Positions 1-15,812 of a stretch of 64,000 nt of DNA are shown one piece after another; position 1 is the stretch's first letter; each line of letters opens with the position of its first letter. The notes beneath the pieces were generated by a model that was given only the letters and a program-made list of their open reading frames with translations, was not told where the DNA came from and made no database searches. Origin of the DNA: Xanthomonas sacchari (GTDB lineage Bacteria; Pseudomonadota; Gammaproteobacteria; Xanthomonadales; Xanthomonadaceae); assembly GCF_040529065.1 (NCBI RefSeq), contig NZ_CP132343.1:1178001-1242000 (forward strand), given 5' to 3'. A program made the translations under genes and the position numbers.

Positions 1-1439
1 GCGACGAATACCCCAACGGTGCGATCAACGCGCTGCGCAACAAGGAATGGTCGCTGCAGTTCGATGCCGAGCGCTACGTCGGCAACGGCGTCCTGGACGC
101 GGTCAAGGTCGGCACCAAGTTCCGCCGCGAGACCTTCGATCGCAACGTCTGGCGTCGCGACTTCCTGTACCTGATCAACTCCGGCGCGGTGTCCGGCTAC
201 GGCATGTTCCCGGAATTGTCGGCGGCCAGTTCCAACGTCAGCAACTTCCTCGACGGCGACCTGGCCTCGCAGAGCGACTGGGTGGCGCCGGACGTGTACG
301 CCTACGCCAGGGCCCTGGCGGCCTCCGGCATTACCGTGCCGGTGCTGTTCGCGCCGCAGGCCAGCTACCACATCCGCAACGACATCTTCTCCGCCTACGC
401 GCTGGCCAAGATCGACACCGACGTCGGCAGCATGCGCCTGCGCGGCAACGTCGGCGTGCGCTACGAGGGCACCAAGCGCACCACCGATACCTACCTGACC
501 ACCGCCTCGCAATACAGCGAGGATGCCAACGAGGTGGTCGGCACCGCGCGCGCCCCGTACGACTACCACAACTGGCTGCCGAGCCTGAACCTGGTGCTGG
601 ACATGCGCGAGGACCTGCTGCTGCGCTTTGCCGCCGGCAAGGTGCTGGTGCGGCCGATCCTGGACAGCAACACCGCCATCGCCACCACCATCTCCTCCGG
701 CAGCAACACCGGCGGCACCACCACCTACGACGTGGCGCTGGGCCAGACCGACCTGAAGGCGCTGACTGCCGACCAGGCCGACCTCAGCCTGGAGTGGTAC
801 TACGGCCAGGGCGGCGGGCTGACCCTGGCCGGCTTCTGGAAGAACGTCAAGAACGGCACCTTCAACAGCATCGTCTGCCCGGCCACGTTCAACGGCACGG
901 CGCTGTCCACCAACGGCGCCGGCGACTGCGTGGACGGCAGCGGCAACATCTACGAGATCACCGCCACCCGCAACGATCCGAGCAAGGTCAAGATCAAGGG
1001 CTACGAACTGGGCTGGACCCAATCCTTCGATGCCTGGCTGCCGATCCAGGGCTTCGGCCTGACCGCCAACTTCACCCGGGTGATCCCGCAGCGCGACACC
1101 GACTTCAAGATCCGCAACCTGTCGGAGAAGACCTGGAACGCCACCGGCTACTGGGAGAACGCGATGTTCTCCGCGCGCCTGTCGCTGAACCATCGCAGCG
1201 AGTACGAGCAGGACAGCAGCGACAGCTTCTTCGCCCGCGAAGGCCACACCATGAAGGCGCGCACCCAGGTCGATGCGGTGCTCGGCTACCAGGCCACCGA
1301 CAAACTCAGCTTCCAGCTCGGCGCGCTCAACCTGACCAACAAGAAGGAAGAGGCGTACAAGGACATCAGCAGCCGCTGGCAGATGACCGGGGTCACCGGC
1401 CGCAGCTTCTACGTGTCGATGCAGTGGGACATCCTGTGA
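1..1439 (+). CDS. TonB-dependent receptor, C-terminal part (5' end outside window)
   Basis: This is the C-terminal beta-barrel part of an outer-membrane TonB-dependent receptor; reading is open from the window edge (first full codon at position 3) to TGA at 1437-1439. It shows the alternating beta-strand and loop pattern of a TBDT barrel, including LRGNVGVRYEGTKR, a 'LPSLNLVLDMREDLLLRFA' type strand pair and LGALNLTNKKEEAY near the end. The terminal residues are QWDIL rather than the usual terminal aromatic. It lies directly upstream of and co-oriented with a GH2 and a GH89 glycosidase and the nag genes, so I infer it imports the glycan on which those enzymes act. The plug domain and TonB box are not visible, so a substrate cannot be assigned from this part. 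Confidence 0.93.
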   Translation, partial: DEYPNGAINALRNKEWSLQFDAERYVGNGVLDAVKVGTKFRRETFDRNVWRRDFLYLINSGAVSGYGMFPELSAASSNVSNFLDGDLASQSDWVAPDVYAYARALAASGITVPVLFAPQASYHIRNDIFSAYALAKIDTDVGSMRLRGNVGVRYEGTKRTTDTYLTTASQYSEDANEVVGTARAPYDYHNWLPSLNLVLDMREDLLLRFAAGKVLVRPILDSNTAIATTISSGSNTGGTTTYDVALGQTDLKALTADQADLSLEWYYGQGGGLTLAGFWKNVKNGTFNSIVCPATFNGTALSTNGAGDCVDGSGNIYEITATRNDPSKVKIKGYELGWTQSFDAWLPIQGFGLTANFTRVIPQRDTDFKIRNLSEKTWNATGYWENAMFSARLSLNHRSEYEQDSSDSFFAREGHTMKARTQVDAVLGYQATDKLSFQLGALNLTNKKEEAYKDISSRWQMTGVTGRSFYVSMQWDIL

Positions 1440-1475: not shown

Positions 1476-1498
1476 CCCGGCGCCGCGGTGGCGCCGGG
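1476..1498 (+). other. Intergenic hairpin between TBDT and GH2 gene
   Basis: A perfect 9-bp inverted repeat (CCCGGCGCC, loop GCGGT, GGCGCCGGG) lies 37 bases after the TBDT stop and 26 bases before the GH2 start, preceded by a second palindrome CGCAGGCGCCTGCG at 1446-1459. There is no T-tract, so it is more likely an mRNA-stabilising or attenuating stem than a full terminator. Confidence 0.5.
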
Positions 1499-1523
1499 CG
1501 GTCGATCCGATGAGGACAAGCGC

Positions 1524-4406
1524 ATGCAACGAAGAACCTTCCTGGCCGGCAGCGCCGGCGCCGGCCTGCTGCTGGCGCTGCCGCGCGGGAGCCGGGCCGG
1601 CACGGCAGCGTCTGCCGGGCTCGCAAGCAGTGGCACGGCTGCCGTGGCGGCCGTACCCACGGTGACTCTGGCGGCCGATCCCGGCCTGTTCTGCCTGGAC
1701 GAGGGCTGGCGTTTCCACGAGGGCGACATCCCGTTTCCGCCGATCACCGGGCAGGACGCCAGCTACGACAACGCCAAGGCCGGCAAGGCCTGGGGCGCGG
1801 CCGCCGGCGATTTCGACGACAGCCAGTGGCGGCAACTGCGGCTGCCGCACGATTTCGCCATCGAGCAACCGATCGAGGCCAGCGCCAACGTGGCGCAGGG
1901 CTATCGCCGCCGCGGCATCGCCTGGTACCGGCGCAGCCTGCGGCTGGATGAGGCGCAGCGTGGCAAGGCGCTGGAACTGCGTCTGGACGGCATTGCCAGC
2001 CGCGCCACGGTGTGGGTCAACGGCCTGCTGATGGCGCGCGGCTGGAGCGGCTACGACGGCATCGCGATCGACATCAGCGCGATCGCGCGCTATGGGCAGG
2101 ATCTCAACACCATCGCGGTGCGCGTGGACGCCGAGGCGATGGACGGATGGTGGTACGAAGGCGCCGGGCTCTACCGGCATACCTGGCTGGCCGTACGCGA
2201 TGCGCTGCATATCGTTGGCGACGGCGTGCATGCGGTGCCGCGCGCCGGTGAAGACGATCGCTGGACGCTGCCGGTGACGGTCACCGTCGCCAACGTCGGC
2301 GAACAGGCCGATGCGGCGCTGCTGGAGGCGACGCTGTACGACGCGCAGGGCACGGTGGTGGCGCAGGGCAGTACCGCGCTGCAGGCCGGCGCGCTGGCGC
2401 AGGTGCAGGCCCAGGTCGTGTTGCAGGTACAGCAGCCGCAGCGTTGGGACGTGGCCGCGCCGCATCTGTACCGGCTCGCGGCGGTGCTGCGCAGCGCGGG
2501 CCGCGAGCGCGACCGCCGCGAGTGCGCGATCGGCTTCCGCACGTTGCGCTTCGATGCGCAGCAGGGCTTCTTCCTCAACGAGCGTCCACTCAAGATCAAG
2601 GGCGCCTGCCTGCACCAGGACCATGCCGGGGTCGGCGTGGCGGTGCCGGACAGCCTGCTGGAGTTCCGCATCCGCCGGCTCAAGGCGCTGGGCTGCAACG
2701 CGATCCGCCTGCACCACGCGGTGGCGAGCGAACTGCTCGACGTGTGCGATCGCCTGGGCATGCTGGTGATGGCCGAGAACCGCGTGTTCAATCCGGCGCC
2801 CGACTACGCCGCGCAACTGCGCTGGCTGGTGCGCCGCGACCGCAACCGCGCGTGCGTGTTCCTGTGGTCGGTGTTCAACGAGGAGCCGATGCAGGGCACC
2901 GTCGCCGGCTACGAAATGGTGCGCCGCGCGGTGGCGCTGGTGCGCACGCTCGACGACAGCCGCCCGGTGACCGCGGCGATGAACGACGGCATGCTGACCG
3001 AACGCAACGCGTCCCATGCGGTGGACGTGGTCGGCTTCAACTACCGCCAGTTCAACTACGACCGGGTGCATGCGGCGCTGCCGCGCACGCCGCTGCTGTC
3101 CAGCGAGGACACCAGCGCCTTCCAGACCCGCGGCGCCTGGTTCACCGACATGGACGCGCACGTCATCGCCGAGGACGACTCGATGGCCGCGCCCTGGGGC
3201 AACACCCATCGCGCGTCCTGGAAGCTGATCGACGAGCGGCCCTACCTGGCCGGCGGCTTCGTCTGGACCGGCTTCGACTATCGCGGCGAGCCGACGCCAT
3301 TCGAATGGCCATCGGTGTCCTCGTTCTTCGGCATCATGGACCTGTGCGGCTTCCCCAAGGGCGCCTACTGGCTGCGCCAGGCGCAATGGATCGACGAGGC
3401 GCCGGTGCTGCAGCTGTTGCCGCACTGGAACTGGCCGGGCCGCGAGGGCGCATCGATCAAGGTGATGGCGTTCTGCAACGCGCAGCAGGTGGAACTGTGG
3501 CTCAACGGCCGCTCGCAAGGGCGGCAGGCGGTGGACCGGATCGCGATGAACACCTGGCAGGTCGTGTATGCGCCCGGCGTGCTGGAAGCGGTGGCCTACC
3601 GCGACGGGCGCGAGGTCGCGCGGCAGCGGGTGCAGACGGTCGGCGCGCCGGTCGCGCTGCGGCTGAGCCCGGACCGCACGCGCATGCGCGGCGACGGCCG
3701 CGACGCGCAACCGATCACCCTGGAGGCAGTGGATGCGCAGGGCCGCCATGTGCCGTTCGCCGATGCGCAGATCGCGCTGCAGGTCGAAGGCGGGCGCCTG
3801 CTCGGCGTCGGCAACGGCGACCCGAACCGGCATGCGCCCGACAACGTGCCGCAGGTGCAGCTGTTCAACGGCCTGGCGCAGGCCATCGTCGAGGCCGGCA
3901 GCGATCGCCGCCGGCTACGCATCGTGGCAAGCGCGCCTGGCCTGCGTGCGGCGCAGGCAGATATCACGCTGGACGCGGCGACGCCGCCGCTGTCGTTGCC
4001 GCCGGCCGCCACGGCGATGGTGGTGGGCGGCTGGCGGCGCACCCTGCCGTTCGCCGCGCCGCCGGATCCGGCGCTGCCGCGTGCGGCCAACGACAACAAC
4101 AGTTGGAGTTTCTGCCAACCGGGCAATCTGGAGATGCGCGCCGAGCGCGACGGCTACGTGCTGTACCGGACCGCGTTCACGCCCTGGGCCGGAATCCAGC
4201 AGCGCGGCGGCCGCTTGCGGCTCGGCCGCGCGACCGGCGCGGTGCAGGTGTATCTGGACCGGCAGCGGGTCGCCAGTGTGGCGGCGGGGCAGCCGGTGTC
4301 CCTGCGGCTGTCGCCGGCGTCTGGCGAACGGGTGCTGGCGGTGGTGATGCAGGTGAAGGCCGGAGCGCCATTCGGCTTCGACGATGTCGCGACAGTGGAG
4401 TATTGA
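1524..4406 (+). CDS. Glycoside hydrolase family 2 protein (beta-galactosidase/beta-glucuronidase type), Tat-exported
   Basis: This is a 960-residue GH2 enzyme, expected to cleave a terminal beta-linked sugar in the periplasm. The start at 1524 gives a twin-arginine signal (MQRRTFLAGSAGAG); an upstream in-frame start at 1488 would put 12 extra residues before it. The sugar-binding domain motif (PHDF, WVNG, YEGAGLYRHTWL) and an Ig-like domain lead into a TIM barrel with FLWSVFNEEP (acid/base Glu453) and LLSSEDTS (nucleophile Glu528). A WLNG-containing DUF4982-like region follows (about 640-690), with further beta domains to the C terminus. It is about as long as LacZ-type enzymes. Gene order ties it to the downstream GH89 gene, only 4 bases away. 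The exact sugar (galactose, glucuronate, mannose) cannot be read from the sequence. Confidence 0.9.
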   Translation: MQRRTFLAGSAGAGLLLALPRGSRAGTAASAGLASSGTAAVAAVPTVTLAADPGLFCLDEGWRFHEGDIPFPPITGQDASYDNAKAGKAWGAAAGDFDDSQWRQLRLPHDFAIEQPIEASANVAQGYRRRGIAWYRRSLRLDEAQRGKALELRLDGIASRATVWVNGLLMARGWSGYDGIAIDISAIARYGQDLNTIAVRVDAEAMDGWWYEGAGLYRHTWLAVRDALHIVGDGVHAVPRAGEDDRWTLPVTVTVANVGEQADAALLEATLYDAQGTVVAQGSTALQAGALAQVQAQVVLQVQQPQRWDVAAPHLYRLAAVLRSAGRERDRRECAIGFRTLRFDAQQGFFLNERPLKIKGACLHQDHAGVGVAVPDSLLEFRIRRLKALGCNAIRLHHAVASELLDVCDRLGMLVMAENRVFNPAPDYAAQLRWLVRRDRNRACVFLWSVFNEEPMQGTVAGYEMVRRAVALVRTLDDSRPVTAAMNDGMLTERNASHAVDVVGFNYRQFNYDRVHAALPRTPLLSSEDTSAFQTRGAWFTDMDAHVIAEDDSMAAPWGNTHRASWKLIDERPYLAGGFVWTGFDYRGEPTPFEWPSVSSFFGIMDLCGFPKGAYWLRQAQWIDEAPVLQLLPHWNWPGREGASIKVMAFCNAQQVELWLNGRSQGRQAVDRIAMNTWQVVYAPGVLEAVAYRDGREVARQRVQTVGAPVALRLSPDRTRMRGDGRDAQPITLEAVDAQGRHVPFADAQIALQVEGGRLLGVGNGDPNRHAPDNVPQVQLFNGLAQAIVEAGSDRRRLRIVASAPGLRAAQADITLDAATPPLSLPPAATAMVVGGWRRTLPFAAPPDPALPRAANDNNSWSFCQPGNLEMRAERDGYVLYRTAFTPWAGIQQRGGRLRLGRATGAVQVYLDRQRVASVAAGQPVSLRLSPASGERVLAVVMQVKAGAPFGFDDVATVEY

Positions 4407-4410
4407 GCCA

Positions 4411-6768
4411 ATGAACCATGCTTTCCGCCAGATCTTCCCGCGCGGCCAGGCCGGACTGCGCCGTGTCCGGGCGATATCGCTGCGCGCGCATGCCCTGCTG
4501 GTGCTGCTGGCCTGTGCGCTACTGGCGCCGGGTGCGTCCGCGTCGCCCGCGCAGGACACGCAGGGCGGCACCGCACGCGAGGTGCTGCTGCGCACGCTCG
4601 GCCCGCGCGCCGCCGAGTTGCGCCTGCAACGGCAGCCGCGCGGCGGAGGCAACGACTGGTATCAAATCGCCGCCGAGGCCGGCACGCTGCGCGTGTCCGG
4701 GTCCTCGGAGGTGGCGCTGGCGCATGGCGCGTACAGCTATCTGCAGTCGATCGGTGCGGCGTCGGTGAGCTGGGAGGGCAGCCGCGTGGCGCTGCCGGCG
4801 GCCTACGCGGACGTCCAGGGGCCGCGTGTGGCTACGCCGTTCGCGCACCGCGCCTACCTCAACGTCTGCACCTACGGCTACACCACGCCGTGGTGGGACT
4901 GGCCGCGCTGGGAGCGCGAGATCGACTGGATGGCGCTGCACGGCATCGACATGCCGCTGGCGATGGAAGGCCAGGAGTACGTGTGGCAGGCGCTGTGGCG
5001 TGAGTTCGGCGTCGCCGATGCGGACCTGGCGCAGTACTTCTCCGGCCCGGCGTTCGCGCCATGGCAGCGCATGGGCAACATCGAAGGCTACGACGCGCCG
5101 CTGCCGCAGCAGTGGATCGAGGACAAGCACGCACTGCAGCTGCGCATCCTGCAGCGCATGCGCGCGCTGGGCATGAAACCGGTGCTGCCGGCCTTCGCCG
5201 GCTACGTGCCGAAGGCCTTCGCGCAGGCGCATCCGCAGGCGCGCATCTACCGCATGCGCGCCTGGGAGGGCTTCCACGAGACCTACTGGCTGGATCCGGC
5301 CGATCCGCTGTTCGCGCAGATCGCGCAGCGCTTCATCCAGCTCTACGACCGCACCTATGGCAAGGGCACCTACTACCTGGCCGATGCGTTCAACGAGATG
5401 TTGCCGCCGATCGCCGCCGACGGCAGCGACGCGCGCCTGGCCAGCTACGGCGACAGCACCGCCAACACCGCCAAGACCAAGCCGCCCGAGGTGCCGCCGG
5501 TGCAGCGCGACAAACGCCTGGCCGCGTACGGCCGCGCGCTGTACGCCTCGATCCACCGCGCCAACCCGGATGCGGTGTGGGTGATGCAGGGCTGGCTGTT
5601 CGGTGCCGACCGCCATTTCTGGACGCCGCAGGCGATCGCCGCGTTCCTGCGCGAGGTGCCCAACGACAAGTTGCTGGTGCTGGATATCGGCAACGATCGC
5701 TACCCCGGCACCTGGAAGCTGTCCGACGCGTTCGACGGCAAGCAGTGGATCTACGGCTACGTGCACAACTACGGCGGCAGCAATCCGGTGTACGGCGACC
5801 TGGCGTTCTACCGCGAGGACCTGCGTGCGCTGCTCGCCGACAAGGACAAGCAGCAACTGGTCGGCTTCGGCGCCTTCCCGGAAGGGCTGCACACCACCTC
5901 GGTGGTCTACGAATACATGTACGCATTGGCCTGGGGCGCGCAGCAGCGCCCGTTGCAGGATTGGCTCGACGACTACACCCGCGCCCGCTACGGGCACACC
6001 TCGCCGGCCTTGCGCGCGGCCTGGGACGACCTGCAGGCGTCGGTGCTGTCGACCCGTTACTGGACGCCGCGCTGGTGGCGCAGCCGCGCCGGCGCCTACC
6101 TGTTGTTCAAGCGGCCGACGCTGGACATCGGCGAGTTCGAAGGTGCGCCCGGCGATCCGCCGCGATTGCGCCGCGCGCTGCAGCAACTGCTGGCGCTGGC
6201 GCCGGAGTACGCCGACGCGCCGTTGTACCGCTACGACCTGGTCGATTTCGCCCGCCACTACGCCACCGGCCGCGTGGACGTGCAGTTGCAGCAGGCGGTG
6301 GCCGCCTACCGGCGCGGCGATGTCGCGGCCGGCGACGCGGCGACTGCGCGCGTGCGCGAGGCGGTGACGCAACTCGACAGCCTGGTCGGCGGCCAGCAGG
6401 ACACCCTGTCGAGCTGGCTCGATGCCGCCGCTGGCTATGCGACGACCCCGCAGGACGCGGCCTACTACCGGCGCGACGCCAAGGCGCAGGTCAGCGTGTG
6501 GGGCGGCGAGGGCAATCTGGGCGATTACGCGTCCAAGGCCTGGCAGGGCATGTATGCGGACTATTACCTGCCGCGCTGGACGCTGGCGCTGCAGATGCTG
6601 AGCGAGGCGGCGGTCGCCGGCGGCAGCGTGGACGAGGCGCAACTGCAGCAACGGCTGCGCGCCTGGGAACGGGACTGGGTGGCGCGCGACACCGCCTACG
6701 TGCGGCACGCGCCGGCCGATCCGGTCGCGGCGGTGCGCACGCTGCTGCACCAGGTGGATGCGCCATGA
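4411..6768 (+). CDS. GH89 alpha-N-acetylglucosaminidase (NAGLU family)
   Basis: This 785-residue homologue of human NAGLU removes terminal alpha-linked GlcNAc. A Sec signal peptide runs from residue 1 to about 47 (hydrophobic core ALLVLLACALLAPGASA). The (alpha/beta)8 domain carries signature stretches MALHGIDMPLAMEGQEYVW, TYYLADAFNEMLPP with the predicted acid/base Glu329, and GFGAFPEGLHTTSVVYEYM with conserved Glu491 in the region of the NAGLU nucleophile. The start at 4411 follows the GH2 stop by four bases; an in-frame upstream ATG at 4384 lies inside the GH2 gene. Its stop overlaps the start of nagX (ATGA), so the two proteins are probably made in step. I infer that it acts in the periplasm on oligosaccharides brought in by the TBDT. 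Confidence 0.93.
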   Translation: MNHAFRQIFPRGQAGLRRVRAISLRAHALLVLLACALLAPGASASPAQDTQGGTAREVLLRTLGPRAAELRLQRQPRGGGNDWYQIAAEAGTLRVSGSSEVALAHGAYSYLQSIGAASVSWEGSRVALPAAYADVQGPRVATPFAHRAYLNVCTYGYTTPWWDWPRWEREIDWMALHGIDMPLAMEGQEYVWQALWREFGVADADLAQYFSGPAFAPWQRMGNIEGYDAPLPQQWIEDKHALQLRILQRMRALGMKPVLPAFAGYVPKAFAQAHPQARIYRMRAWEGFHETYWLDPADPLFAQIAQRFIQLYDRTYGKGTYYLADAFNEMLPPIAADGSDARLASYGDSTANTAKTKPPEVPPVQRDKRLAAYGRALYASIHRANPDAVWVMQGWLFGADRHFWTPQAIAAFLREVPNDKLLVLDIGNDRYPGTWKLSDAFDGKQWIYGYVHNYGGSNPVYGDLAFYREDLRALLADKDKQQLVGFGAFPEGLHTTSVVYEYMYALAWGAQQRPLQDWLDDYTRARYGHTSPALRAAWDDLQASVLSTRYWTPRWWRSRAGAYLLFKRPTLDIGEFEGAPGDPPRLRRALQQLLALAPEYADAPLYRYDLVDFARHYATGRVDVQLQQAVAAYRRGDVAAGDAATARVREAVTQLDSLVGGQQDTLSSWLDAAAGYATTPQDAAYYRRDAKAQVSVWGGEGNLGDYASKAWQGMYADYYLPRWTLALQMLSEAAVAGGSVDEAQLQQRLRAWERDWVARDTAYVRHAPADPVAAVRTLLHQVDAP

Positions 6769-7919
6769 GCGCCGCGTCCGTCCGCCTTCCCGCCGCGGCG
6801 CCGCCGCGCGAACGCTTCCTGTCGCTGGACGTGTTCCGCGGCCTGACCATCTTCCTGATGATCCTGGTCAACACGCCGGGTGCCGGCGCCGATGCGTTCG
6901 TGCAACTGCGGCATACGCCGTGGTTCGGCTTCACCGCCGCCGATCTGGTGTTCCCGTCGTTCCTGTTCGCGGTCGGCAACGCGATGAGCTTCGCGCTGGA
7001 CCGCGGCCAGCCGCTCGGCGCGTTCCTGCGTCGGGTCGGCAAGCGCAGCGCGCTGATCTTCCTGCTCGGCTTCCTGATGTACTGGTTCCCGTTTGTGCAC
7101 CAGGGCGCGGACGGCCACTGGAGCCTCACCGCGATCGACCAGACCCGGGTGCCGGGCGTGCTGCAGCGCATCGCGCTGTGCTACGCGCTGGCGGCACTGC
7201 TGTGCCGCTGGCTGTCGCCGCGCGGCCTGCTGGGCATGTGCGTCGCGCTGCTGCTCGGCTACTGGGGCGCGCTGTACCTGTGGGGCCAGCCGGGCGCGGA
7301 GCTGAGCAAGCTCGGCAATGCCGGCACGCGCCTGGACCTGTGGCTGCTGGATCCGGCGCAGCTGTATCGCAAGGACGGCGGGTTCGATCCGGAGGGCCTG
7401 CTCGGCACCTTGCCGGCCACGGTCAACGTCATCGCCGGCTACCTGACCGGCCTGTACGTGCGCCGGGTCGGCAAGCAGGCGCGCACGGTGCGCTGGTTGT
7501 GGCTGGCCGGCGGCGCGCTGGTCCTGCTGGCGCTGGCCTGGCAGCCGTGGTTCCCGCTGGCCAAGAAACTGTGGACCGGCTCGTTCGTGCTGCTGACCGT
7601 GGGCCTGGACCTGTGGCTGCTGGGCGCGCTGCTGTGGGCGATCGAAGTGCGCGGCTGGCAGGCCGGCAGCGGCTTCTTCACCGTGCTCGGGCGCAACCCG
7701 CTGGCGATCTACCTGTTCTCCGAACTGTTCGTGGTCTGCCTGCGGCTGGTCCCGGCCGGTGGCAGCGGCATGGACCTGTACCAGTGGCTGGGCGTGGAGG
7801 TGTTCCAGCGGCTGCTGCCCGGCCCGTGGGGCAGCCTGGCCTGCGCGTTGGCCTATACGTTGCTGTGCTGGCTGGTGGGCTGGTGGATGGATCGCAGGAG
7901 GCTGTACCTGCGGCTGTGA
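6765..7919 (+). CDS. nagX: NagX, HGSNAT-like inner-membrane acetyltransferase
   Basis: This is a 384-residue polytopic membrane protein of the NagX/HGSNAT (DUF5009) family. The N-terminal block SLDVFRGLTIFLMILVN followed by LRHTPWFGFTAADLVFP closely matches, from memory, the human HGSNAT segment around its active-site histidine; the equivalent here is His50. About ten hydrophobic helices follow, for example LIFLLGFLMYWFPF, LLGMCVALLLGYWGALYLW and SFVLLTVGLDLWLLGALLWA. HGSNAT moves an acetyl group from cytosolic acetyl-CoA across the membrane to terminal alpha-glucosamine. Its ATG overlaps the GH89 stop codon, so an acetylation-then-hydrolysis sequence is a reasonable inference. Enzymatic activity of bacterial NagX proteins is less certain than the homology. 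Confidence 0.88.
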   Translation: MSAASVRLPAAAPPRERFLSLDVFRGLTIFLMILVNTPGAGADAFVQLRHTPWFGFTAADLVFPSFLFAVGNAMSFALDRGQPLGAFLRRVGKRSALIFLLGFLMYWFPFVHQGADGHWSLTAIDQTRVPGVLQRIALCYALAALLCRWLSPRGLLGMCVALLLGYWGALYLWGQPGAELSKLGNAGTRLDLWLLDPAQLYRKDGGFDPEGLLGTLPATVNVIAGYLTGLYVRRVGKQARTVRWLWLAGGALVLLALAWQPWFPLAKKLWTGSFVLLTVGLDLWLLGALLWAIEVRGWQAGSGFFTVLGRNPLAIYLFSELFVVCLRLVPAGGSGMDLYQWLGVEVFQRLLPGPWGSLACALAYTLLCWLVGWWMDRRRLYLRL

Positions 7920-7936: not shown

Positions 7937-7989
7937 GCGAATTGGTACTATATTGGACATAACGAATTCATGCGGACTGGAGAGCGCGC
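7937..7989 (+). promoter_or_regulatory. AT-rich promoter/operator candidate upstream of nagQ
   Basis: A short AT-rich island lies in the 71-bp gap between nagX and nagQ. It holds a direct repeat ATTGG at 7941-7945 and 7952-7956, one helical turn apart, and an extended -10-like TGGTACTAT. The site is a plausible binding place for NagQ or NagR. The ribosome binding site for nagQ is GGAGAG at 7979-7984. Confidence 0.4.
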
Positions 7990-7990
7990 C

Positions 7991-8746
7991 ATGACCAAGC
8001 CCAAGCCGCAGGCCGATCCACGCCTGCACGCGCTGGCTGTGGACCCGGACGCGCCGACGCCGCTGTACCTGCAGCTGGCCAGCAAGCTGGTGGAGGCGAT
8101 CAAGGGCGGGCAGTGGAAGCCGGGCGAGGCGCTGCCGGCCGAACGGCAACTGTGCGAATACCTGCAGGTGTCGCGGGTGACCCTGCGCCAGGCCGTGGAT
8201 GCGCTGGTCGAGCAGGGTCTGGTGTCGCGTCGCCAGGGCGCCGGTACCTTCGTCACCTCGCACATCCAGCACCAGCTCAGCGGCCTGGCCAGTTTCAGCG
8301 AAACCCTGCGCATGAAGGGACTGGAGCCGGGCACGCGCTGGCTGGAGCGGCGCACGCGTCCGGCGCACGGCGAGGAGATCCTGCGCCTGGGCCTGTCGCC
8401 GGACACCGTGGTCGCGGCGCTGACCCGCCTGCGCAGCGCCGACGGCCGGGTGATGGCCTACGAGAAGGCGGTGCTGCCGCAGCACGTGGTGCCCGATCCG
8501 CACGCCATCGCCGATTCGCTCTACAGCTACCTGGACGAGCGCGGCACCCCGGTGGTGCGGGCGCTGCAGTACTTCCGCGCGATCAACCTGCCGGCGCGGC
8601 TGGCCGGCCATCTCGGCATGAAGGAAGGCGAGGCGATCCTGCACGTGGTGCGGGTCGGCTACACCCGCGACGGCAGCGCGATCGAACTGACCGACACTTA
8701 TTGCCACAACGACTACTACGACTTCGTCGCCGAACTGCGACGCTGA
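7991..8746 (+). CDS. nagQ: NagQ, GntR-family (UTRA) transcriptional regulator
   Basis: This is a 251-residue GntR/HutC-type regulator. Residues about 15-85 form the winged helix-turn-helix (PLYLQLASKLVEAIKGGQWKP, LPAERQLCEYLQVSRVTLRQA, GAGTFV); the rest is a UTRA effector domain (GLASFSETLRMKGLEPGT, LTRLRSADGRVMAYEKAVL, ELTDTYCHNDYYDFV). Related proteins DasR and YvoA/NagR bind aminosugar phosphates and repress GlcNAc genes. The ATG at 7991 is chosen over the in-frame ATG at 7970 because GGAGAG sits just upstream. It probably controls the surrounding nag genes and their own promoter. Confidence 0.9.
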   Translation: MTKPKPQADPRLHALAVDPDAPTPLYLQLASKLVEAIKGGQWKPGEALPAERQLCEYLQVSRVTLRQAVDALVEQGLVSRRQGAGTFVTSHIQHQLSGLASFSETLRMKGLEPGTRWLERRTRPAHGEEILRLGLSPDTVVAALTRLRSADGRVMAYEKAVLPQHVVPDPHAIADSLYSYLDERGTPVVRALQYFRAINLPARLAGHLGMKEGEAILHVVRVGYTRDGSAIELTDTYCHNDYYDFVAELRR

Positions 8747-8782
8747 TCGCCGATCCCCGCGCCCTCCCGGAGCACGCCGCCC

Positions 8783-10048
8783 ATGACCACCGCACGGCCC
8801 GCCAGTCCCTACGCTTCCATCGCCATCGTCGGCCTGTTGTTCTTCATCATGGGCTTCTTTACCTGGATCAACGGGCCGTTGATCCTGTTCGCCAAGGTCG
8901 CCTTCAATGTCAGCGACACGTTCGCGTTCCTCATCCCGAGCGCGTTCTACATTTCCTACTTCTGCCTGGCATTGCCTTCGTCGTTCATCCTGAAGCTGAC
9001 CGGGATGAAGAAGGGTCTGGCGCTGAGCCTGCTGATCCTGGCGATCGGCGCGGCCATCTTCGGCCAGTTCACCAATGCCCGTTCCTACGTGGGCGCGGTG
9101 AGCGGCATCTTCATCATCGGCGGCGGCCTGGCCCTGCTGCAGACCGCGGTCAATCCGTACATCAGCATCCTCGGGCCGATCGACGGCGCCGCGCGCCGTA
9201 TCGCGCTCATGGGCATCTGCAACAAGGTGGCGGGCGCGCTGGCCACGTATGGACTGGCGAAGGTGGTCCTGCACGGCATGGAGGATTTTTCGACCCAGAT
9301 CGAACAGGTGCTGCCGGCGCAGAAGGAACTGCTGTTGCAGGAGTTCGCCGGCCGCATCCACGGCCCCTACATGGCGATCGCCGGCGTGCTTGCCGTGCTT
9401 TCCGTGGCCATCCTGTTTTCGCCTCTGCCCGAGATCAGCGCCGAGAAGGCCAACGCGTCGGCCGCCGACGAACGCAGCCGCGACAGCATCTTCGCGTTCC
9501 CGCACGTGTGGCTGGGCGCCTTGTGCATCTTCGTGTACGTCGGCGCCGAGGTGATGGCGGGCGATGCGATCGGCATCTACGGCAACAGCCTCGGCCTCTC
9601 GCTCGACTACGCGAAGTATTTCACCATCGGCACCCTGGCCTGCATGCTGGCGGGCTACCTGGTCGGCCTGGTGCTGATTCCGAAGTACATATCGCAGGAG
9701 AAGTACCTGTCCATCTCGGCATGCCTCGGCATCGTCTTTTCGCTGTGCGCGATGTTGACCGGCGGTTATGTCTCGGTGGCGTTCGTGGCGGCGCTCGGAT
9801 TCGCCAACGCCATCATGTGGCCGGCCATCTTCCCGCTGGCCATCAAGGGGCTGGGAAAGTTCACCGAGAAGGGCGCGGCGCTGTTGATCATGGGCATCGT
9901 GGGCGGCGCCGCGGTGCCGCAGCTGTTCGCCCATCTGAAGGAGTCGTTCGATTTCCAGGTGGTCTTCGCCGGCTTGATGATCGCCTGCTACCTGTACATC
10001 TTGTTCTTCGCGCTGCGCGGTCACCGCGTCGGCCAGGGCGCGCGGTGA
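8783..10048 (+). CDS. nagP: NagP, MFS N-acetylglucosamine transporter
   Basis: This is a 421-residue major facilitator of the FucP/NagP sugar:proton symporter family in the inner membrane. About twelve hydrophobic segments are visible, starting IAIVGLLFFIMGFFTWINGP, a signature of NagP proteins, then LPSSFILKLTGMKKGL, GGGLALLQTAVNPYISILGP and FANAIMWPAIFPLAIKGLG. It would bring GlcNAc released in the periplasm into the cytoplasm without phosphorylation, so a separate kinase is needed. The gene is 36 bases after nagQ and 38 before nagR. Confidence 0.93.
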   Translation: MTTARPASPYASIAIVGLLFFIMGFFTWINGPLILFAKVAFNVSDTFAFLIPSAFYISYFCLALPSSFILKLTGMKKGLALSLLILAIGAAIFGQFTNARSYVGAVSGIFIIGGGLALLQTAVNPYISILGPIDGAARRIALMGICNKVAGALATYGLAKVVLHGMEDFSTQIEQVLPAQKELLLQEFAGRIHGPYMAIAGVLAVLSVAILFSPLPEISAEKANASAADERSRDSIFAFPHVWLGALCIFVYVGAEVMAGDAIGIYGNSLGLSLDYAKYFTIGTLACMLAGYLVGLVLIPKYISQEKYLSISACLGIVFSLCAMLTGGYVSVAFVAALGFANAIMWPAIFPLAIKGLGKFTEKGAALLIMGIVGGAAVPQLFAHLKESFDFQVVFAGLMIACYLYILFFALRGHRVGQGAR

Positions 10049-10086: not shown

Positions 10087-11154
10087 ATGCGCAGACCCAC
10101 CATCAAAGACGTCGCCGAACGGGCGCGGGTGTCGCTGAAGACCGTCTCGCGGGTCATCAACAACGAACCGTCGGTGATGCAGGCCACGCGCTCGCGCGTG
10201 CTGCATGCCATCGCCGAGCTGGACTACGAGCCGGATCCGTCGGCGCGCAACCTGCGCAGCGGCACGCCGTTCGTGATCGGGCTGGTGTACGACAACCCCA
10301 ACCCGTACCACATCATCGGCGTGCAGAACGGCGTGCTCGCCGCCTGCCGCGAGACCGGCTTCGGCCTGCAGATCCATCCCTGCGATTCCACCGCGCCGAT
10401 GCTCGCCGAGGAACTGGCCGAGTGGACCCAGCGCTCGCGCCTGGCCGGGCTGGTGCTGACCGCGCCGATGTCCGAGCGCGCCGACCTGGTCGCGGCGCTG
10501 GCCGCGCGCGGGATCAAGACCGTGCGCATCATCGCCGCCACCGAGGATCCGCAGGACGGCCCCTGCGTCTACGTCGACGATCGCGACGCCGCCTACGAGA
10601 TCACCGAGCACCTGATCCAGCTCGGCCACCAGCGCATCGGCTTCCTGTGGGGCGGCACCTCGCATCGCTCCAGCGGCGAGCGCTACGCCGGCTACGAGGC
10701 GGCGCTGAAGGACTACGGCATCACCCTGGACAAGCATCTGGTGATCCCCGGCGACTACACCTTCGACGATGGCTTCCGCGGCGCGCGGCGCCTGCTGGCG
10801 CTGCGCGAGCCGCCGACTGCGATCTTCGGCTCCAACGACGAGATCGCCGCCGGCGTGCTGGCCGCGGCCAAGTCGGCGGGCATGAACGTGCCCTACGACC
10901 TGTCCATCGCCGGCTTCGAGGACAGCCCGTTCTCGCGCCAGTCGTGGCCGCCGCTGACCACCGCCAAGCAGGCCACCGAAGACATCGCCCGCCACGCCGC
11001 GCGGCTGCTGATCAGCCAGCTGCGCAGCGATGCCTACGAAGACCATCCGGCGCCGGTGCACAACCAGGGCTTCGTGCCGCAACTGGTGGTGCGTGGCTCG
11101 ACCGCGCCCATGCAGCCGCATTCCCGCCGTTCCTCCTCCCCTGACCCCACATGA
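10087..11154 (+). CDS. nagR: NagR, LacI-family transcriptional regulator
   Basis: This is a 355-residue LacI/GalR repressor. The HTH is at residues 3-30 (PTIKDVAERARVSLKTVSRV), with a hinge helix near residues 50-60. A periplasmic-binding-protein-like sugar domain follows (FVIGLVYDNPNPY, DDRDAAYEITEHLIQLGHQRI, IFGSNDEIAAGVL, DLSIAGFEDSPF, ending with the LacI-type PQLVVRGST). Location inside the nag block makes it the likely GlcNAc-responsive repressor of this regulon. Its stop overlaps the nagB-II start (ATGA). No clear Shine-Dalgarno is visible before the ATG, suggesting coupling to nagP translation. Confidence 0.92.
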   Translation: MRRPTIKDVAERARVSLKTVSRVINNEPSVMQATRSRVLHAIAELDYEPDPSARNLRSGTPFVIGLVYDNPNPYHIIGVQNGVLAACRETGFGLQIHPCDSTAPMLAEELAEWTQRSRLAGLVLTAPMSERADLVAALAARGIKTVRIIAATEDPQDGPCVYVDDRDAAYEITEHLIQLGHQRIGFLWGGTSHRSSGERYAGYEAALKDYGITLDKHLVIPGDYTFDDGFRGARRLLALREPPTAIFGSNDEIAAGVLAAAKSAGMNVPYDLSIAGFEDSPFSRQSWPPLTTAKQATEDIARHAARLLISQLRSDAYEDHPAPVHNQGFVPQLVVRGSTAPMQPHSRRSSSPDPT

Positions 11155-12191
11155 CCCTGCCCATGGCGCTGCCCTCCGAAACCGACACCCTGATGTTCCG
11201 CGAAGCCGCGGAAGCCGCCGCGGTCATCGCCGCGCAGTTCGAACGCAACCACGCCACCGTGAGCGCGCTCGCCGCGTCGTTGCGCGCCACGCCGCCGCCG
11301 TTCGTGGTGACCTGCGCGCGCGGCAGTTCCGACCACGCCGCCACCTACGCCAAGTACCTGTTCGAGACCCAGCTCGGCGTGGTCACCGCCTCGGCCTCGC
11401 CGTCGGTGGGGTCGGTGTACGAAGCGCCGCTGCAGTTGCGCGGCGCGCTGTACCTGGTGATCTCGCAGTCGGGCAAGAGCCCGGACCTGCTGCGCAACGC
11501 GCAGGCGGCCAAGGACGCCGGCGCGCGCGTGGTGGCCCTGGTCAACGTCGAGGATTCGCCGCTGGCGCAGCTGGCCGACACGGTGATCCCGCTCGGCGCC
11601 GGCCCGGAGAAGAGCGTGGCCGCGACCAAGAGTTACCTGGCCTCGCTGGCGGCGATCCTGCAGCTCGGTGCGCACTGGAAGAACGACCCGGCGCTGCTGG
11701 GCGCCCTGCAGGAATTGCCGCAGGCGCTGCGTGCGGCCTGGCAGGCCGACTGGCGCTCGCTGACCGACGGCCTGGTCGAGGCGCACAACCTGTTCGTGCT
11801 CGACCGCGGCCTGGGCCTGGCGGCGGCGCAGGAAGCGGCGCTGAAGTTCAAGGAGACCTGCGGCCTGCATGCCGAGGCCTACAGCTCGGCCGAAGTGAAG
11901 CACGGGCCGATGGCCCTGGTCGGCCCGGGCTTCCCGGTGCTGGCGTTCGACCAGCCGGACGAGGCCGGCGAGGGCACCCGGCGCCTGGCCGAGGAATTCC
12001 GCGGCCGCGGCGCACAGGTATGGCTGGCCAGCGCCGGCGGCGACCTGCCGCTGGTCGCCGCGCCGCACCCGGCATGTGCGCCGCTGCTGGCGATCCAGAG
12101 CTTCTACCGTGCGATCAACGCCCTGGCGCTGCGCCGCGGCTACAACCCGGACCTGCCGCCGCATCTGAACAAAGTGACGGAGACCGTCTGA
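11151..12191 (+). CDS. nagB-II: NagB-II, SIS-domain glucosamine-6-phosphate deaminase
   Basis: This is a 346-residue protein with two SIS (sugar isomerase) domains. The N-terminal domain has RGSSDHAATYAKYLFE, ISQSGKSPDLL, and GPEKSVAATKSYLASLAAI; the C-terminal domain has FKETCGLHAEAYSSAEVKHGP. NagB-II converts glucosamine-6-phosphate to fructose-6-phosphate and ammonia in the cytoplasm. It lacks the glutamine-amidotransferase half of GlmS, which rules out a biosynthetic GlmS. It overlaps nagR at the start and nagA at the stop (TGATG), so the three are tightly coupled. An alternative ATG lies four codons downstream. Confidence 0.93.
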   Translation: MTLPMALPSETDTLMFREAAEAAAVIAAQFERNHATVSALAASLRATPPPFVVTCARGSSDHAATYAKYLFETQLGVVTASASPSVGSVYEAPLQLRGALYLVISQSGKSPDLLRNAQAAKDAGARVVALVNVEDSPLAQLADTVIPLGAGPEKSVAATKSYLASLAAILQLGAHWKNDPALLGALQELPQALRAAWQADWRSLTDGLVEAHNLFVLDRGLGLAAAQEAALKFKETCGLHAEAYSSAEVKHGPMALVGPGFPVLAFDQPDEAGEGTRRLAEEFRGRGAQVWLASAGGDLPLVAAPHPACAPLLAIQSFYRAINALALRRGYNPDLPPHLNKVTETV

Positions 12192-13336
12192 TGACCACCG
12201 TGGCGCTGCGCAATGCGCGCGTGCTCGGCGAGGATGGATTCCTCGACGGCGTCAGCGTGCTGCTGGAGGGCGGGCGCATCCTCGCTCTGCTCGACGACGC
12301 CGATCCGCGCGTGGCGGCAGCGCCGGTGCAGCACGACCTGGGCGGCGGCAGCCTGCTGCCGGGCTTCATCGACCTGCAGGTCAACGGCGGCGGCGGGGTG
12401 CTGTTCAACAACCGCACCGACGTCGAGGCGCTGCGCCGCATCGGCCAGGGCCATCGCCGCTACGGCACCACCGGCTACCTGCCGACGCTGATCAGCGACG
12501 ACGTGGAGGTGATGCGCGCGGCGATCGCCGCCACGCGCCAGGCCATCGCCGAAGGCGTGCCGGGCGTGCTCGGCATCCACCTGGAAGGACCCTACCTGGC
12601 GCCGGCGCGCAAGGGCACCCACAACGCCGACAAGTTCCGCGTGCCCGACGCCGACGAACTGGCCATGGTCACCTCGCTGGACAACGGCGTCACCCTGATC
12701 ACCCTGGCACCGGAGCGCGTGCCGGCGGCCAGCATCCGCACCCTGGCCGCGGCCGGTGCGCGCGTGTTCGCCGGCCACACCGCCGCCAGCTACGAAGAGA
12801 CCCGCGCCGGGCTGGACGCCGGCATCTGCGGCTTCACCCATCTGTACAACGCCATGACCCCGTTGCAGGGGCGCGATCCCGGCGTGGTCGGCGCCGCACT
12901 CGAAGACCGCAACGCCTGGTGTGGCGTGATCGTCGACGGCGTGCACGTGCATCCGGCCAGCCTGCGCGTGGCGCTGGCGGCTAAGCCGCGCGGCACCGTG
13001 TTCCTGGTCACCGACGCGATGCCGATGGTCGGCGCCGACAGCCCCGCGTTCGACCTGTACGGCGAAACCATCACCGCCATCGACGGCGTGGTGCGCAATG
13101 CCGCCGGCGCCCTGGCCGGCTCGGCGCTGGACATGGCCAGCGCGGTGCGCAACAGCGTGCAGTGGCTGGACGTGCCGCTGGAAGAGGCCGCGCGCATGGC
13201 CTCGCTGTACCCCGCGCAGTGCGTGGGCCTGGACCACCGCTACGGCCACATCGCACCCGGTTACCAAGCCGACCTGGTGCTGCTGGACGACGCGTTGCAG
13301 GTCCAGCATACCTGGATCGCGGGCGTGATGGAGTAG
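12191..13336 (+). CDS. nagA: NagA, N-acetylglucosamine-6-phosphate deacetylase
   Basis: This is a 381-residue amidohydrolase-superfamily deacetylase that turns GlcNAc-6-phosphate into glucosamine-6-phosphate and acetate. Visible motifs are GFIDLQVNGGGGVLFN, GIHLEGPYLAPARKGTHN (metal Glu), VFAGHTAASYEE (metal His), FTHLYNAMTPLQ (second metal His), VIVDGVHVHP (substrate His) and LVTDAMPMVG (catalytic Asp). Its start ATG overlaps the nagB-II stop. It is the last gene of the block; after it comes a 380-bp gap without a clear T-tract terminator. Confidence 0.95.
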   Translation: MTTVALRNARVLGEDGFLDGVSVLLEGGRILALLDDADPRVAAAPVQHDLGGGSLLPGFIDLQVNGGGGVLFNNRTDVEALRRIGQGHRRYGTTGYLPTLISDDVEVMRAAIAATRQAIAEGVPGVLGIHLEGPYLAPARKGTHNADKFRVPDADELAMVTSLDNGVTLITLAPERVPAASIRTLAAAGARVFAGHTAASYEETRAGLDAGICGFTHLYNAMTPLQGRDPGVVGAALEDRNAWCGVIVDGVHVHPASLRVALAAKPRGTVFLVTDAMPMVGADSPAFDLYGETITAIDGVVRNAAGALAGSALDMASAVRNSVQWLDVPLEEAARMASLYPAQCVGLDHRYGHIAPGYQADLVLLDDALQVQHTWIAGVME

Positions 13337-13715: not shown

Positions 13716-15812
13716 ATGCGCATCGTACGGACGGTGCCGCGTTCTTGCGGCAGCGGTGAAGAGTGGTTCGCTGGAATGTCGCGTGTCGTCGTGGCTTGCC
13801 GCATGCAGTGGAGTGGCGGCTCCGATGTGTTGCGCCGAGCCAGCGAGCGGCGGCAGTTGCATACGCGGACACTGCGCAATGTGGGGAGTACCCATGCCGC
13901 GGTGGCCCTGTTGCTGTGGGCGACGGCGTGGCCAATCTGGGCGGCGACGGCACCGGCGGCTTGCCGGCGGCCGGCGGCGCCGGTGGCTTGCGCCGGCCCG
14001 ACCGCGGTCGGGCGCTTCATCGCCCGCAATGCTGGCCCCTGGCAGCCCCATGCGTTCGCCACGCCGCTCGATGTGCCCGCAGGGGAGACCCTGGCCATCG
14101 CGATCTGCGGACAGGCCAACCAGGCGGTGCAGGATGCGCAGTGGCAGGCGCAGCCGTCGTTGCTGCCGACGCTGGTCCACCGCGTCGGCGTGGACGCCAC
14201 GCTGGCGATCCTGGTGCAGGACAGCGCCAACGTGGCGTTGGCCGGCCGGCTGACCCTGGGCGAGGACACGCTCGCCGCCGACGGCAGCTTGCATGCGCCG
14301 GTGGGGCCGGTGCAGGCCGCGCTGATCGGGACACTGGTCGATGGCCCCATCGCGGACGGTGCACGCATCGATCTGCGCCTGCGCGACTCGGCCAACGTCA
14401 GCCTGCAGACCGCGCAGAGCCATCTGCACCTGGGTGGCGGCAGCCTCAGCGAACGGTTGATCGCGCCCCGCGATGCAGCGGTCGCGTCCGCCGACGGCGC
14501 CTGTCTCGAAATCGTGGCGGAGCGCAGCGACCGGGTGCTGGGAGATCGCGGCCTGCTGACGATCGGCGGCGGCCGCTTGCAGGGCACGCTGATCGCGCAT
14601 CCGCTGCGTGGCAGCCGCGTCGTCGTGCAGGCGGACGAGGTGGCCACTGTGGCGGCGGACGAGGTCCGCCTGTTTGCCGGCCAGTTGCTGGATGACGTGG
14701 TGCACGCCGGGCCGTGGTACGGCGGCCAGATCGCGATCGGACTCGCCAACGTGGCCAATGTCGATGCGCGCGCACTGGACATCCAGGATGCGGTGCTGGT
14801 CGACGAACTGGTCGACGCCGGGCACGTGCAGGACGCGGCGATCGACCTGCGCCTGACGGATACCGGCAACGCCAGCATCGAGGGCGCGCTGCGCATCGGC
14901 GATGGCGGGCTGATCGACGAGCCGTTGGACGCTGCCGACCTGCTCGCGTCCGCTGTCGCGGTGACGCTGCTGCGCAGCGGCAATGCGGTCGCTGCCGAAG
15001 CGCGGATCGTGGACGGCGAACTGATCGACGAAGCGATCGATGTAGGGGCGACACAGGATGCGGTATTGGCGGTGCGCTTCGAGGATGCCGGCAACCTGCA
15101 CGCCGTGGCCGCGCGGATCGAGGAGGGCGAGCTGATCGACGAGGCGATCGATGCTGCATCCTTCGATGGTGGCGCGCTGGACGTGGCGTTCGCCGACAGC
15201 GGCAACGTCACCGGCGACGCCCTTGCCATCGTCCATGGCGAACTGATCGACGAGGCGGTCGACCTGCAGGGCCCGCTCGCCCGCGCGCAGTTGCGCCTGG
15301 ACATGGCCGATGCCGGCAACGCCCGGGTCCGGGCGCTGGACATCGTCGAGGGCGAGCTGGTCGATGAACTGCTGGACCTGATCGATGCGCGCGACGCCAG
15401 CGCGGAACTGCGCGTGCGGCGCAGCGGCAATGCGGGGGGCGCGCTATCGGCGTTGGCCCAGCGCGTGTCGATCGTGCAGGGCGAGTTGATGGATGAGGTG
15501 ATCGACGCGGCAGGGACGCTGGACGGATTCGCCGGCGTGGTCGATCTCGGCGATGTCGCCAACGCGCGCGCCGCACGCATCGCGCTGCAGGGCGCGCAAC
15601 TGCTCGACGGCGTGGTGGACACGGCGGAGTTGCGCGTCAGCGAACTCGGCCTGCAACTGACCGATGTGGCCAACGCGCGCTATCGGGACGCCTTGGAGAT
15701 GCAGGACAACAGCACGCTGTTGGGGACGATCGCCGACGTGGACCGCCGCGATGCCGCATCGCAGATCGCCACGGTGGCCGTGGCCAGCGGGGAGGCGATC
15801 CAGGTGCCGTAG
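13716..15812 (+). CDS. Secreted-type repeat protein of unknown function (37-38-residue repeats)
   Basis: I do not recognise this 698-residue protein. The ATG at 13716 follows a strong Shine-Dalgarno (GGGGGAGA), yet the only signal-peptide-like stretch is internal (about 60-80: AAVALLLWATAWPIWAATA), so a downstream non-ATG start such as GTG at residue 56 is possible. After a Cys/Pro/Ala-rich segment (80-130) the protein turns repetitive. From about residue 300 to 665 roughly ten units of 37-38 residues carry a hydrophobic-alternating strand, then D-x-G-N or V-A-N, then A-L-x-I-x-x-GELIDE-x-(I/V)D. It is rich in Asp/Glu, with few Lys and no Cys in the repeats. The alternation suggests a beta-solenoid or amyloid-like cell-surface or extracellular protein. 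It stands alone between the nag block and a GTAG repeat. A shadow of an antisense gene is unlikely because the periodicity is clean only in this frame. Confidence 0.75.
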   Translation: MRIVRTVPRSCGSGEEWFAGMSRVVVACRMQWSGGSDVLRRASERRQLHTRTLRNVGSTHAAVALLLWATAWPIWAATAPAACRRPAAPVACAGPTAVGRFIARNAGPWQPHAFATPLDVPAGETLAIAICGQANQAVQDAQWQAQPSLLPTLVHRVGVDATLAILVQDSANVALAGRLTLGEDTLAADGSLHAPVGPVQAALIGTLVDGPIADGARIDLRLRDSANVSLQTAQSHLHLGGGSLSERLIAPRDAAVASADGACLEIVAERSDRVLGDRGLLTIGGGRLQGTLIAHPLRGSRVVVQADEVATVAADEVRLFAGQLLDDVVHAGPWYGGQIAIGLANVANVDARALDIQDAVLVDELVDAGHVQDAAIDLRLTDTGNASIEGALRIGDGGLIDEPLDAADLLASAVAVTLLRSGNAVAAEARIVDGELIDEAIDVGATQDAVLAVRFEDAGNLHAVAARIEEGELIDEAIDAASFDGGALDVAFADSGNVTGDALAIVHGELIDEAVDLQGPLARAQLRLDMADAGNARVRALDIVEGELVDELLDLIDARDASAELRVRRSGNAGGALSALAQRVSIVQGELMDEVIDAAGTLDGFAGVVDLGDVANARAARIALQGAQLLDGVVDTAELRVSELGLQLTDVANARYRDALEMQDNSTLLGTIADVDRRDAASQIATVAVASGEAIQVP
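14620..15700 (+). repeat. Degenerate 111/114-nt tandem repeats coding GN...GELIDE units
   Basis: Codons for the anchor residue of each unit (Asn, Thr in the first) start at 14646, 14757, 14868, 14982, 15093, 15204, 15318, 15429, 15561 and 15672. The intervals are 111, 111, 114, 111, 111, 114, 111, 132 and 111 nt. More diverged units lie upstream, with anchors near 14229 and 14394. DNA identity between units is modest, so the period is kept at protein level. Confidence 0.85.

Follow-up and report, generated by a model that had tools for sequence, protein, structure and literature searches.

Introduction

In lysosomal heparan sulfate degradation, two consecutive steps are carried out by human HGSNAT (EC 2.3.1.78) and then NAGLU (EC 3.2.1.50). 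Homologs of both enzymes are encoded side by side in Xanthomonas sacchari, where a gene of glycoside hydrolase family 89 (GH89) is followed by nagX in a stretch of 64,000 nucleotides (contig NZ_CP132343.1, positions 1,178,001 to 1,242,000 of the forward strand), hereafter referred to as the window. Unlike human HGSNAT and NAGLU, the bacterial pair is encoded by genes that adjoin and overlap.

Characterized GH89 enzymes, among which Bacteroides thetaiotaomicron Bt3590 and Clostridium perfringens CpGH89 are the closest points of comparison (PMC8225759; PMC3313936), liberate N-acetylglucosamine (GlcNAc) (PMC8225759); the available passages of the latter paper contain no test on α-linked glucosamine (α-GlcN) substrates. 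NagX has been proposed as a transmembrane transacetylase converting periplasmic glucosamine into GlcNAc, on the basis of mutant fitness in five bacteria and with a conserved histidine pointed out (Price et al., 2022; PMC9007349), and the NagX proteins of Shewanella and other bacteria are predicted transmembrane glucosamine N-acetyltransferases of GlcNAc catabolic operons (PMC9007349; NF046061). More recently, Stenotrophomonas maltophilia nagF, from the nagPIBAF operon, was published as a GlcNAc permease (PMC13055268, from 2026). Our literature search returned no published pairing of GH89 with an HGSNAT-like gene, a result that does not equal absence from print, since subscription papers possibly lie outside its coverage.

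The GH89-nagX Pair of Xanthomonas sacchari

The X. sacchari genome (one contig, 4.96 Mb) contains a single GH89 gene and a single nagX. The original prediction had the GH89 stop and the nagX start sharing ATGA, and the coordinates agree: the stop codon TGA occupies 6766-6768 and the nagX ATG 6765-6767, with the four bases ATGA common to both genes. The homologies claimed for the two proteins were likewise confirmed. The GH89 protein contains the three NAGLU domains of Pfam above their cut-offs (N-terminal, TIM-barrel and C-terminal; 423, 184, and 52 bits) and matches human NAGLU in the Protein Data Bank (PDB 4xwh, E 1.3e-116); its N-terminus carries a hydrophobic stretch that, judged by eye, resembles an export signal. 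The predicted catalytic residues Glu329 and Glu491 are invariant across 11 aligned GH89 proteins and correspond to E316 and E446 of human NAGLU (PMC13207710), the same catalytic glutamates being found in Bt3590 and CpGH89. The CpGH89 loop bearing Trp685, tied to galactose recognition, is missing in the window GH89, as it is in NAGLU and Bt3590. This loop was also considered as a divider of NagX-linked and unlinked GH89 proteins and rejected for lack of discrimination: it is missing in the window protein and the other aligned proteobacterial NagX-linked GH89, and a Trp-bearing insert is present in an unlinked GH89 (genome G358), yet also in several NagX-linked proteins of Bacteroidota.

NagX scores 35.3 bits against Pfam HGSNAT_cat (PF07786, cut-off 22) and matches human HGSNAT in the PDB (8vkj, E 2.2e-23), which places it in the HGSNAT fold. 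Its block LRHTPWFGFTAADLVFP aligns with human FKHASWNGLTVADLVFP, so that His50 falls on His297, the human active-site histidine, as had been claimed. Besides His50, NagX residues Asp60, Asn36, Arg128 and Glu210 correspond to human D307, N286, R372 and E499; by alignment, the catalytic His-Asp dyad, the oxyanion Asn and the GlcN-binding Arg and Glu are all present, and these five positions, together with Arg25 and Arg94, show no variation in 30 aligned NagX proteins. Thus, human HGSNAT and bacterial NagX have in common the fold, the dyad, the oxyanion Asn and the GlcN-contact residues, while the human luminal domain and first helix have no counterpart in NagX (the structural alignment begins at about human residue 265). 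Against the NCBIfam equivalog NagX_SO_3504 (NF046061) the window protein reaches 147 bits, under the cut-off of 480; by sequence it is homologous to Shewanella NagX, is not called its equivalog, and belongs to a GH89-linked clade.

Recurrence and Specificity of the Pairing

The prediction would have failed had the adjacency not been conserved in related genomes, and the neighborhood comparison was therefore carried out; adjacency of GH89 and NagX is conserved both in Xanthomonadaceae and across Proteobacteria. Among 149 Xanthomonadaceae genomes, GH89 occurs in 11 and NagX in 62. All 11 GH89-bearing genomes carry a NagX 67-100% identical to that of the window, and the two genes are adjacent in 10 of them; in the eleventh (G030) the pair is divided by contig ends, one contig holding the GH89 tail followed by NagX. 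The NagX proteins of the remaining 51 genomes are 35-43% identical to the window protein, except for one at 68% (G085, locus L086). This genome, of the same genus as the window, has nagX and a nag operon, no GH89, and a NagX lying inside the GH89-linked clade, which suggests GH89 loss; that nagX was kept beside the nag operon indicates that it is useful by itself.

In a phylum-wide survey of 398 genomes, GH89 was present in six, with NagX adjacent in four and approximately 4.5 kb off in one. A scan of named genomes was further made on the best 80 of 565 confirmed GH89 stretches, a choice that favors close relatives, with loci defined as 10 kb on either side (less at contig ends); its counts are non-independent, with at least one genome represented by two loci (L078 and L097). 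NagX was found on the same locus in 72 of 73 proteobacterial GH89 loci, the sole exception (L103) being a stretch that stops inside GH89 and resembles the G030 contig. The spacing between the two matches is below 300 bases in 65 of the 72 loci and 0.9-4.4 kb in the other seven. The paired genera include Xanthomonas, Stenotrophomonas, Caulobacter, Asticcacaulis, Phenylobacterium, Sphingomonas, Novosphingobium, Niveispirillum, Azospirillum, Rheinheimera, Alteromonas, Aestuariibacter and Paraglaciecola. Among the junctions of 81 adjacent pairs, an ATG-over-TGA overlap was observed in 43 and a possible overlap of another kind in eight, the closest NagX start lay more than 30 bases off the GH89 stop in 13, and the gene order was reversed in six; translational coupling is thus a candidate feature, frequent among adjacent pairs and not universal. 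Extra, unlinked NagX copies also occur in some linked genomes (two in six alteromonad-type genomes, three to six in the Asticcacaulis genomes searched).

The pairing is specific to GH89. Counting genes in NagX-bearing genomes, and leaving aside short split GH20 fragments and weak partial NagX matches, 10 of 11 GH89 genes lie within 1.5 kb of NagX in the family vs. 1 of 87 GH20 genes; the figures for the phylum are 4 of 5 and 1 of 45, so that GH20 adjoins NagX in two exceptions only (G114 and G521). GH20 is present in 62/62 NagX-bearing family genomes, and 28 of its 87 genes are within 12 kb of NagX. NagX therefore goes with GlcNAc catabolism in general, immediate adjacency being almost restricted to GH89. 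Shared membership of nag operons was rejected as a sufficient explanation: GH20 almost never adjoins NagX, and no nag gene lies within 10 kb of many of the alphaproteobacterial pairs.

The pairing is also recurrent. A NagX tree was built from 147 of 152 deduplicated sequences (at least 325 residues) by a quick search, and has long branches; on it, the GH89-linked label requires seven changes, at least five of them forced by well-supported branches, against a mean of 44.9 for shuffled labels. Linked NagX proteins fall in a large alpha/gammaproteobacterial clade, an Alteromonadaceae/Rheinheimera clade, three places in Bacteroidota, and G521. That the pair recurs in either gene order and with distinct NagX lineages speaks for function, and the many other bacteria that keep GH89 and NagX together indicate that the two probably work as a pair. 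The GH89-NagX pairing is real, widespread, and specific.

Among 247 Bacteroidota genomes, GH89 was found in 18 (23 genes, 21 loci). NagX adjoins GH89 in six of the 21 loci (L230-L233, L239, L240), and in L236 the gene for a NagX relative of the DUF5009 family is 1.5 kb from it. Remote NagX proteins may be overlooked by tblastn with proteobacterial references, the L236 relative having given a short match only. An apparent absence of a NagX partner from Flavobacterium GH89 loci was dropped: none of seven Flavobacteriaceae loci has NagX within 10 kb, yet a same-strand NagX lies 21-28 kb off in five of five genomes examined, one of which (G576) is also counted, as a negative, among the 21 loci. 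In four Flavobacterium genomes this distance is 21-28 kb, with GH92, GH28 and GH2 between or beside the two genes, and in Confluentibacter approximately 25 kb. The Confluentibacter flavum NagX (Flavobacteriaceae; L251, 16268-17398) is 53% identical to that of the window, far nearer than the Flavobacterium proteins, and its sequence suggests horizontal transfer. A Flavobacterium gene beside GH89 (L300, 10889-12868, minus strand) fuses glucosamine-6-phosphate isomerase-like and PIG-L (GlcNAc-phosphatidylinositol de-N-acetylase) domains.

A Proposed Two-Step Module and Its Alternatives

With moderate confidence, we take as the best explanation that GH89 and NagX make up a two-step module for α-linked amino-sugar ends, the bacterial equivalent of what HGSNAT and NAGLU do in the lysosome. 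The TonB-dependent receptor encoded upstream would admit oligosaccharides to the periplasm, NagX would acetylate the α-GlcN end prior to GH89 action, and GH89 would take off α-GlcNAc; NagP would then import GlcNAc, to be catabolized after phosphorylation by NagA and NagB-II. The reading is built on what the sequences show, namely the order and overlap of the genes, the fold, the residues for catalysis and substrate contact, and a conserved, recurrent pairing specific to GH89; from these we infer that the proteins have the required enzyme activities and topology and act on glycosidic GlcN ahead of cleavage. The lysosome-like interpretation of the original prediction accordingly stands in part: the HGSNAT fold, all the residues checked and the conserved pairing uphold it, and acetyltransferase activity, use of glycosidic α-GlcN and the order of the steps keep their conditional form. 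Acetylation followed by cleavage would, by analogy, agree with the human pathway and with the GlcNAc that characterized GH89 enzymes liberate (PMC8225759).

Several observations weigh against this module. G358, in the phylum survey, has GH89 and lacks NagX; GH89 and NagX are encoded on opposite strands and separated by a LacI gene in 6 of the 72 proteobacterial loci; and 14 of the 21 Bacteroidota loci have no NagX within approximately 10 kb by the tblastn search described. NagX also occurs without GH89, in the 50 family genomes with the more distant protein and in G085. Moreover, unlinked NagX proteins show no variation at the checked residues either, so that these imply no use of α-glycosides. 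Finally, in Caulobacter vibrioides DSM 9893 the sole NagX is linked to GH89, and NagX of Caulobacter crescentus is needed for free glucosamine (PMC9007349); if both are the same gene, as we infer, a GH89-linked NagX serves free GlcN, and under that assumption NagX probably accepts free glucosamine as well.

The latter points lead to the strongest alternative, which we regard as possible and somewhat improbable: cleavage would precede acetylation, or the process would be one of plain salvage, with amino sugars freed by GH89 or other enzymes and NagX N-acetylating only free periplasmic glucosamine for the GlcNAc transporter, the pair being co-regulated since both proteins serve one glycan holding GlcN and GlcNAc. 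Mutant fitness in the five bacteria agrees with it: NagX matters on glucosamine and not on GlcNAc, with C. crescentus a possible exception, four of the five also involve NagA, and in four there is a role for NagP or a different sugar transporter (PMC9007349). So do the lone, GH89-linked NagX of C. vibrioides and the frequency of NagX without GH89, often in nag clusters, in a family whose NagX-bearing genomes all have GH20. By itself, however, salvage leaves unexplained the adjacency to GH89 and near absence beside GH20 (G114 and G521 apart), as well as the recurrence of the pair across distinct NagX lineages, in varying gene order, and at loci without a nearby nag gene; in addition, characterized GH89 enzymes release GlcNAc, for which no acetylation is required (PMC8225759).

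It is improbable, in our judgment, that NagX is instead an inner-membrane permease importing the GH89 product, GlcNAc or a related amino sugar, in the manner of S. maltophilia NagF or Tannerella forsythia MurT. Deletion of nagF hampers growth on GlcNAc, more so when nagP is also deleted (PMC13055268), and NagF looks NagX-type by its gene order (NagP, LacI, NagB, NagA, NagX-type), which is that of locus L094, a locus without GH89. If NagF is indeed of NagX type, the two published readings of NagX (PMC9007349; PMC13055268) are in conflict.

Least credible is an inherited accident, one receptor-GH89-nagX cassette spread by descent and transfer with no functional coupling: most proteobacterial pairs do sit in one NagX clade (70/71 rows GH89-linked), which makes many of the counts above non-independent, but the separately paired lineages of Alteromonadaceae/Rheinheimera, Bacteroidota and G521, the six reversed pairs and the retention of nagX with the nag operon in G085, inside the linked clade and without GH89, render it very improbable.

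Candidate Natural Substrates

The natural substrate of the GH89-NagX module is its least certain part, and our guess, drawn from relatives, is an inositol-phosphate glycan, such as the head groups of plant glycosyl inositol phosphoryl ceramides (GIPCs). Glycosylphosphatidylinositol (GPI)-type or fungal inositol glycans with α-GlcN would fit in part. Plant GIPC head groups exist in GlcN and GlcNAc forms (PMC8099651; see also PMC11496612). As regards lysosome-like breakdown of heparan sulfate, no heparin lyases or sulfatases appeared in the Pfam matches of 76 proteins, one read out of frame, taken from the window, the stretch upstream of it and related loci.

The first clue is GH115, the α-glucuronidase family, found on 19 of 77 proteobacterial GH89 loci (stretches of approximately 20 kb) vs. 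0 of 27 NagX loci without GH89. As these 27 are mostly from Gammaproteobacteria, a within-genome test is the better control. GH115 occurs in 30 of 35 GH89-bearing proteobacterial genomes, and its 46 strong matches form two equal classes by Pfam score. In the lower-scoring class, 16 of 23 lie within 30 kb of a GH89-linked NagX (11 within 12 kb, seven within 5 kb), against 0 of 23 in the higher-scoring one; a tree including 20 of the 46 splits the classes at 100/100. The nearest PDB entry for the two linked-class proteins tested (Caulobacter and Sphingomonas) is BtGH115A (5by3), and for two of the other class 4zmh, followed by the GH115 α-glucuronidase 4c90. BtGH115A is reported to be active on arabinogalactan and not on xylan, an activity that has been questioned, arabinogalactan glucuronic acid being β-linked (PMC9063842). 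The BtGH115A-like, non-xylan-like clade was seen beside GH89-NagX at L279-L292, L111, L123, and L128, mostly in Alphaproteobacteria. Our search for literature on GIPC together with GH115 yielded nothing beyond work on xylan.

Other clues come from the gene content of the loci. Caulobacter-type loci (4 of 77) have a histidine phosphatase gene placed between those of NagX and GH115, and Bacteroidota loci hold GH92, GH97, GH28 and metallophosphoesterases. Seven of 36 Bacteroidota stretches, L230-L232 and those of four Flavobacterium genomes, encode a myo-inositol oxygenase, identified by Pfam for the L299 protein (7974-8843, minus strand) and by tblastn for the rest (the remaining Flavobacterium loci being L301, L304, and L306); its presence in these GH89/NagX clusters hints at degradation of an inositol-containing glycan. 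Breakdown of plant GIPC head groups would call for such a set of enzymes.

Tentatively, and with a negative answer the likelier, inositol-phosphate glycans (plant GIPC head groups and possibly GPI-type glycans) may be degraded by a widespread bacterial route that is centered on GH89-NagX and not yet described, the lysosomal logic having been reached several times in bacteria. In such a route, GH92, GH2 or GH97 would trim the outer sugars, NagX would acetylate α-GlcN and GH89 remove α-GlcNAc, a dedicated BtGH115A-type GH115 would cut α-1,2-glucuronate, and phosphatases and myo-inositol oxygenase would finish the inositol. Two results from X. sacchari weigh against it: GH115 is absent from the window genome, and tblastn of the window and the 38 kb upstream gave no myo-inositol oxygenase. 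The GIPC substrate put forward in the original prediction thus gains indirect support in relatives (the GH115 clade, myo-inositol oxygenase and phosphatases) and, for X. sacchari itself, is a hypothesis carried over from them.

Genomic Context of the Pair

The pair belongs to a block of genes in the same direction (Table 1), in which the GH2 stop sits four bases ahead of the GH89 start. In seven Sphingomonas loci, NagX and GH115 have a GH2 next to them that is 52-54% identical to that of the window; in G092 (L080, 5496-8344), the GH2 gene was recovered as three tblastn pieces in different frames, from a frameshift or assembly errors. Further downstream in the window, an open frame of up to 698 amino acids (13716-15812, plus strand; the gene caller favors a start at 14073) contains diverged repeats around 'GELIDEAID...DSGN' and matches no Pfam family.

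Table 1. Features of the GH89-nagX block (window coordinates; aa, amino acids; MFS, major facilitator superfamily).
Feature	Position	Strand	Basis or remark
TonB-dependent receptor, C-terminal part; starts upstream of the window, 853 aa whole	1-1439	+	
GH2, beta-galactosidase type; start codon uncertain (1488 or 1662)	1488-4406	+	
GH89 alpha-N-acetylglucosaminidase (NAGLU homolog), 785 aa	4411-6768	+	Three Pfam NAGLU domains, PDB match
ATGA overlap of GH89 stop and nagX start, candidate translational coupling	6765-6768	+	Sequence
nagX, predicted HGSNAT-like transmembrane N-acetyltransferase, 384 aa	6765-7919	+	Pfam HGSNAT_cat, PDB match
GntR/UTRA regulator	7991-8746	+	
NagP-like MFS sugar transporter	8783-10048	+	Under NagP equivalog cut-off
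LacI-family regulator	10087-11154	+	
NagB-II-like glucosamine-6-phosphate deaminase, SIS domains	11151-12191	+	367 bits, equivalog cut-off 430
NagA	12191-13336	+	TIGR00221 above cut-off

Implications

The link of GH89-NagX to a GH115 clade whose arabinogalactan activity has been questioned (PMC9063842), and to myo-inositol oxygenase, offers a concrete candidate pathway for the abundant sphingolipid head groups of plants. Should NagX acetylate glycosidic α-GlcN before GH89 acts, the lysosomal trick of building up in order to break down would be a general bacterial catabolic strategy, and these bacteria would supply compact single-chain models of the enzyme whose deficiency underlies Sanfilippo syndrome C.

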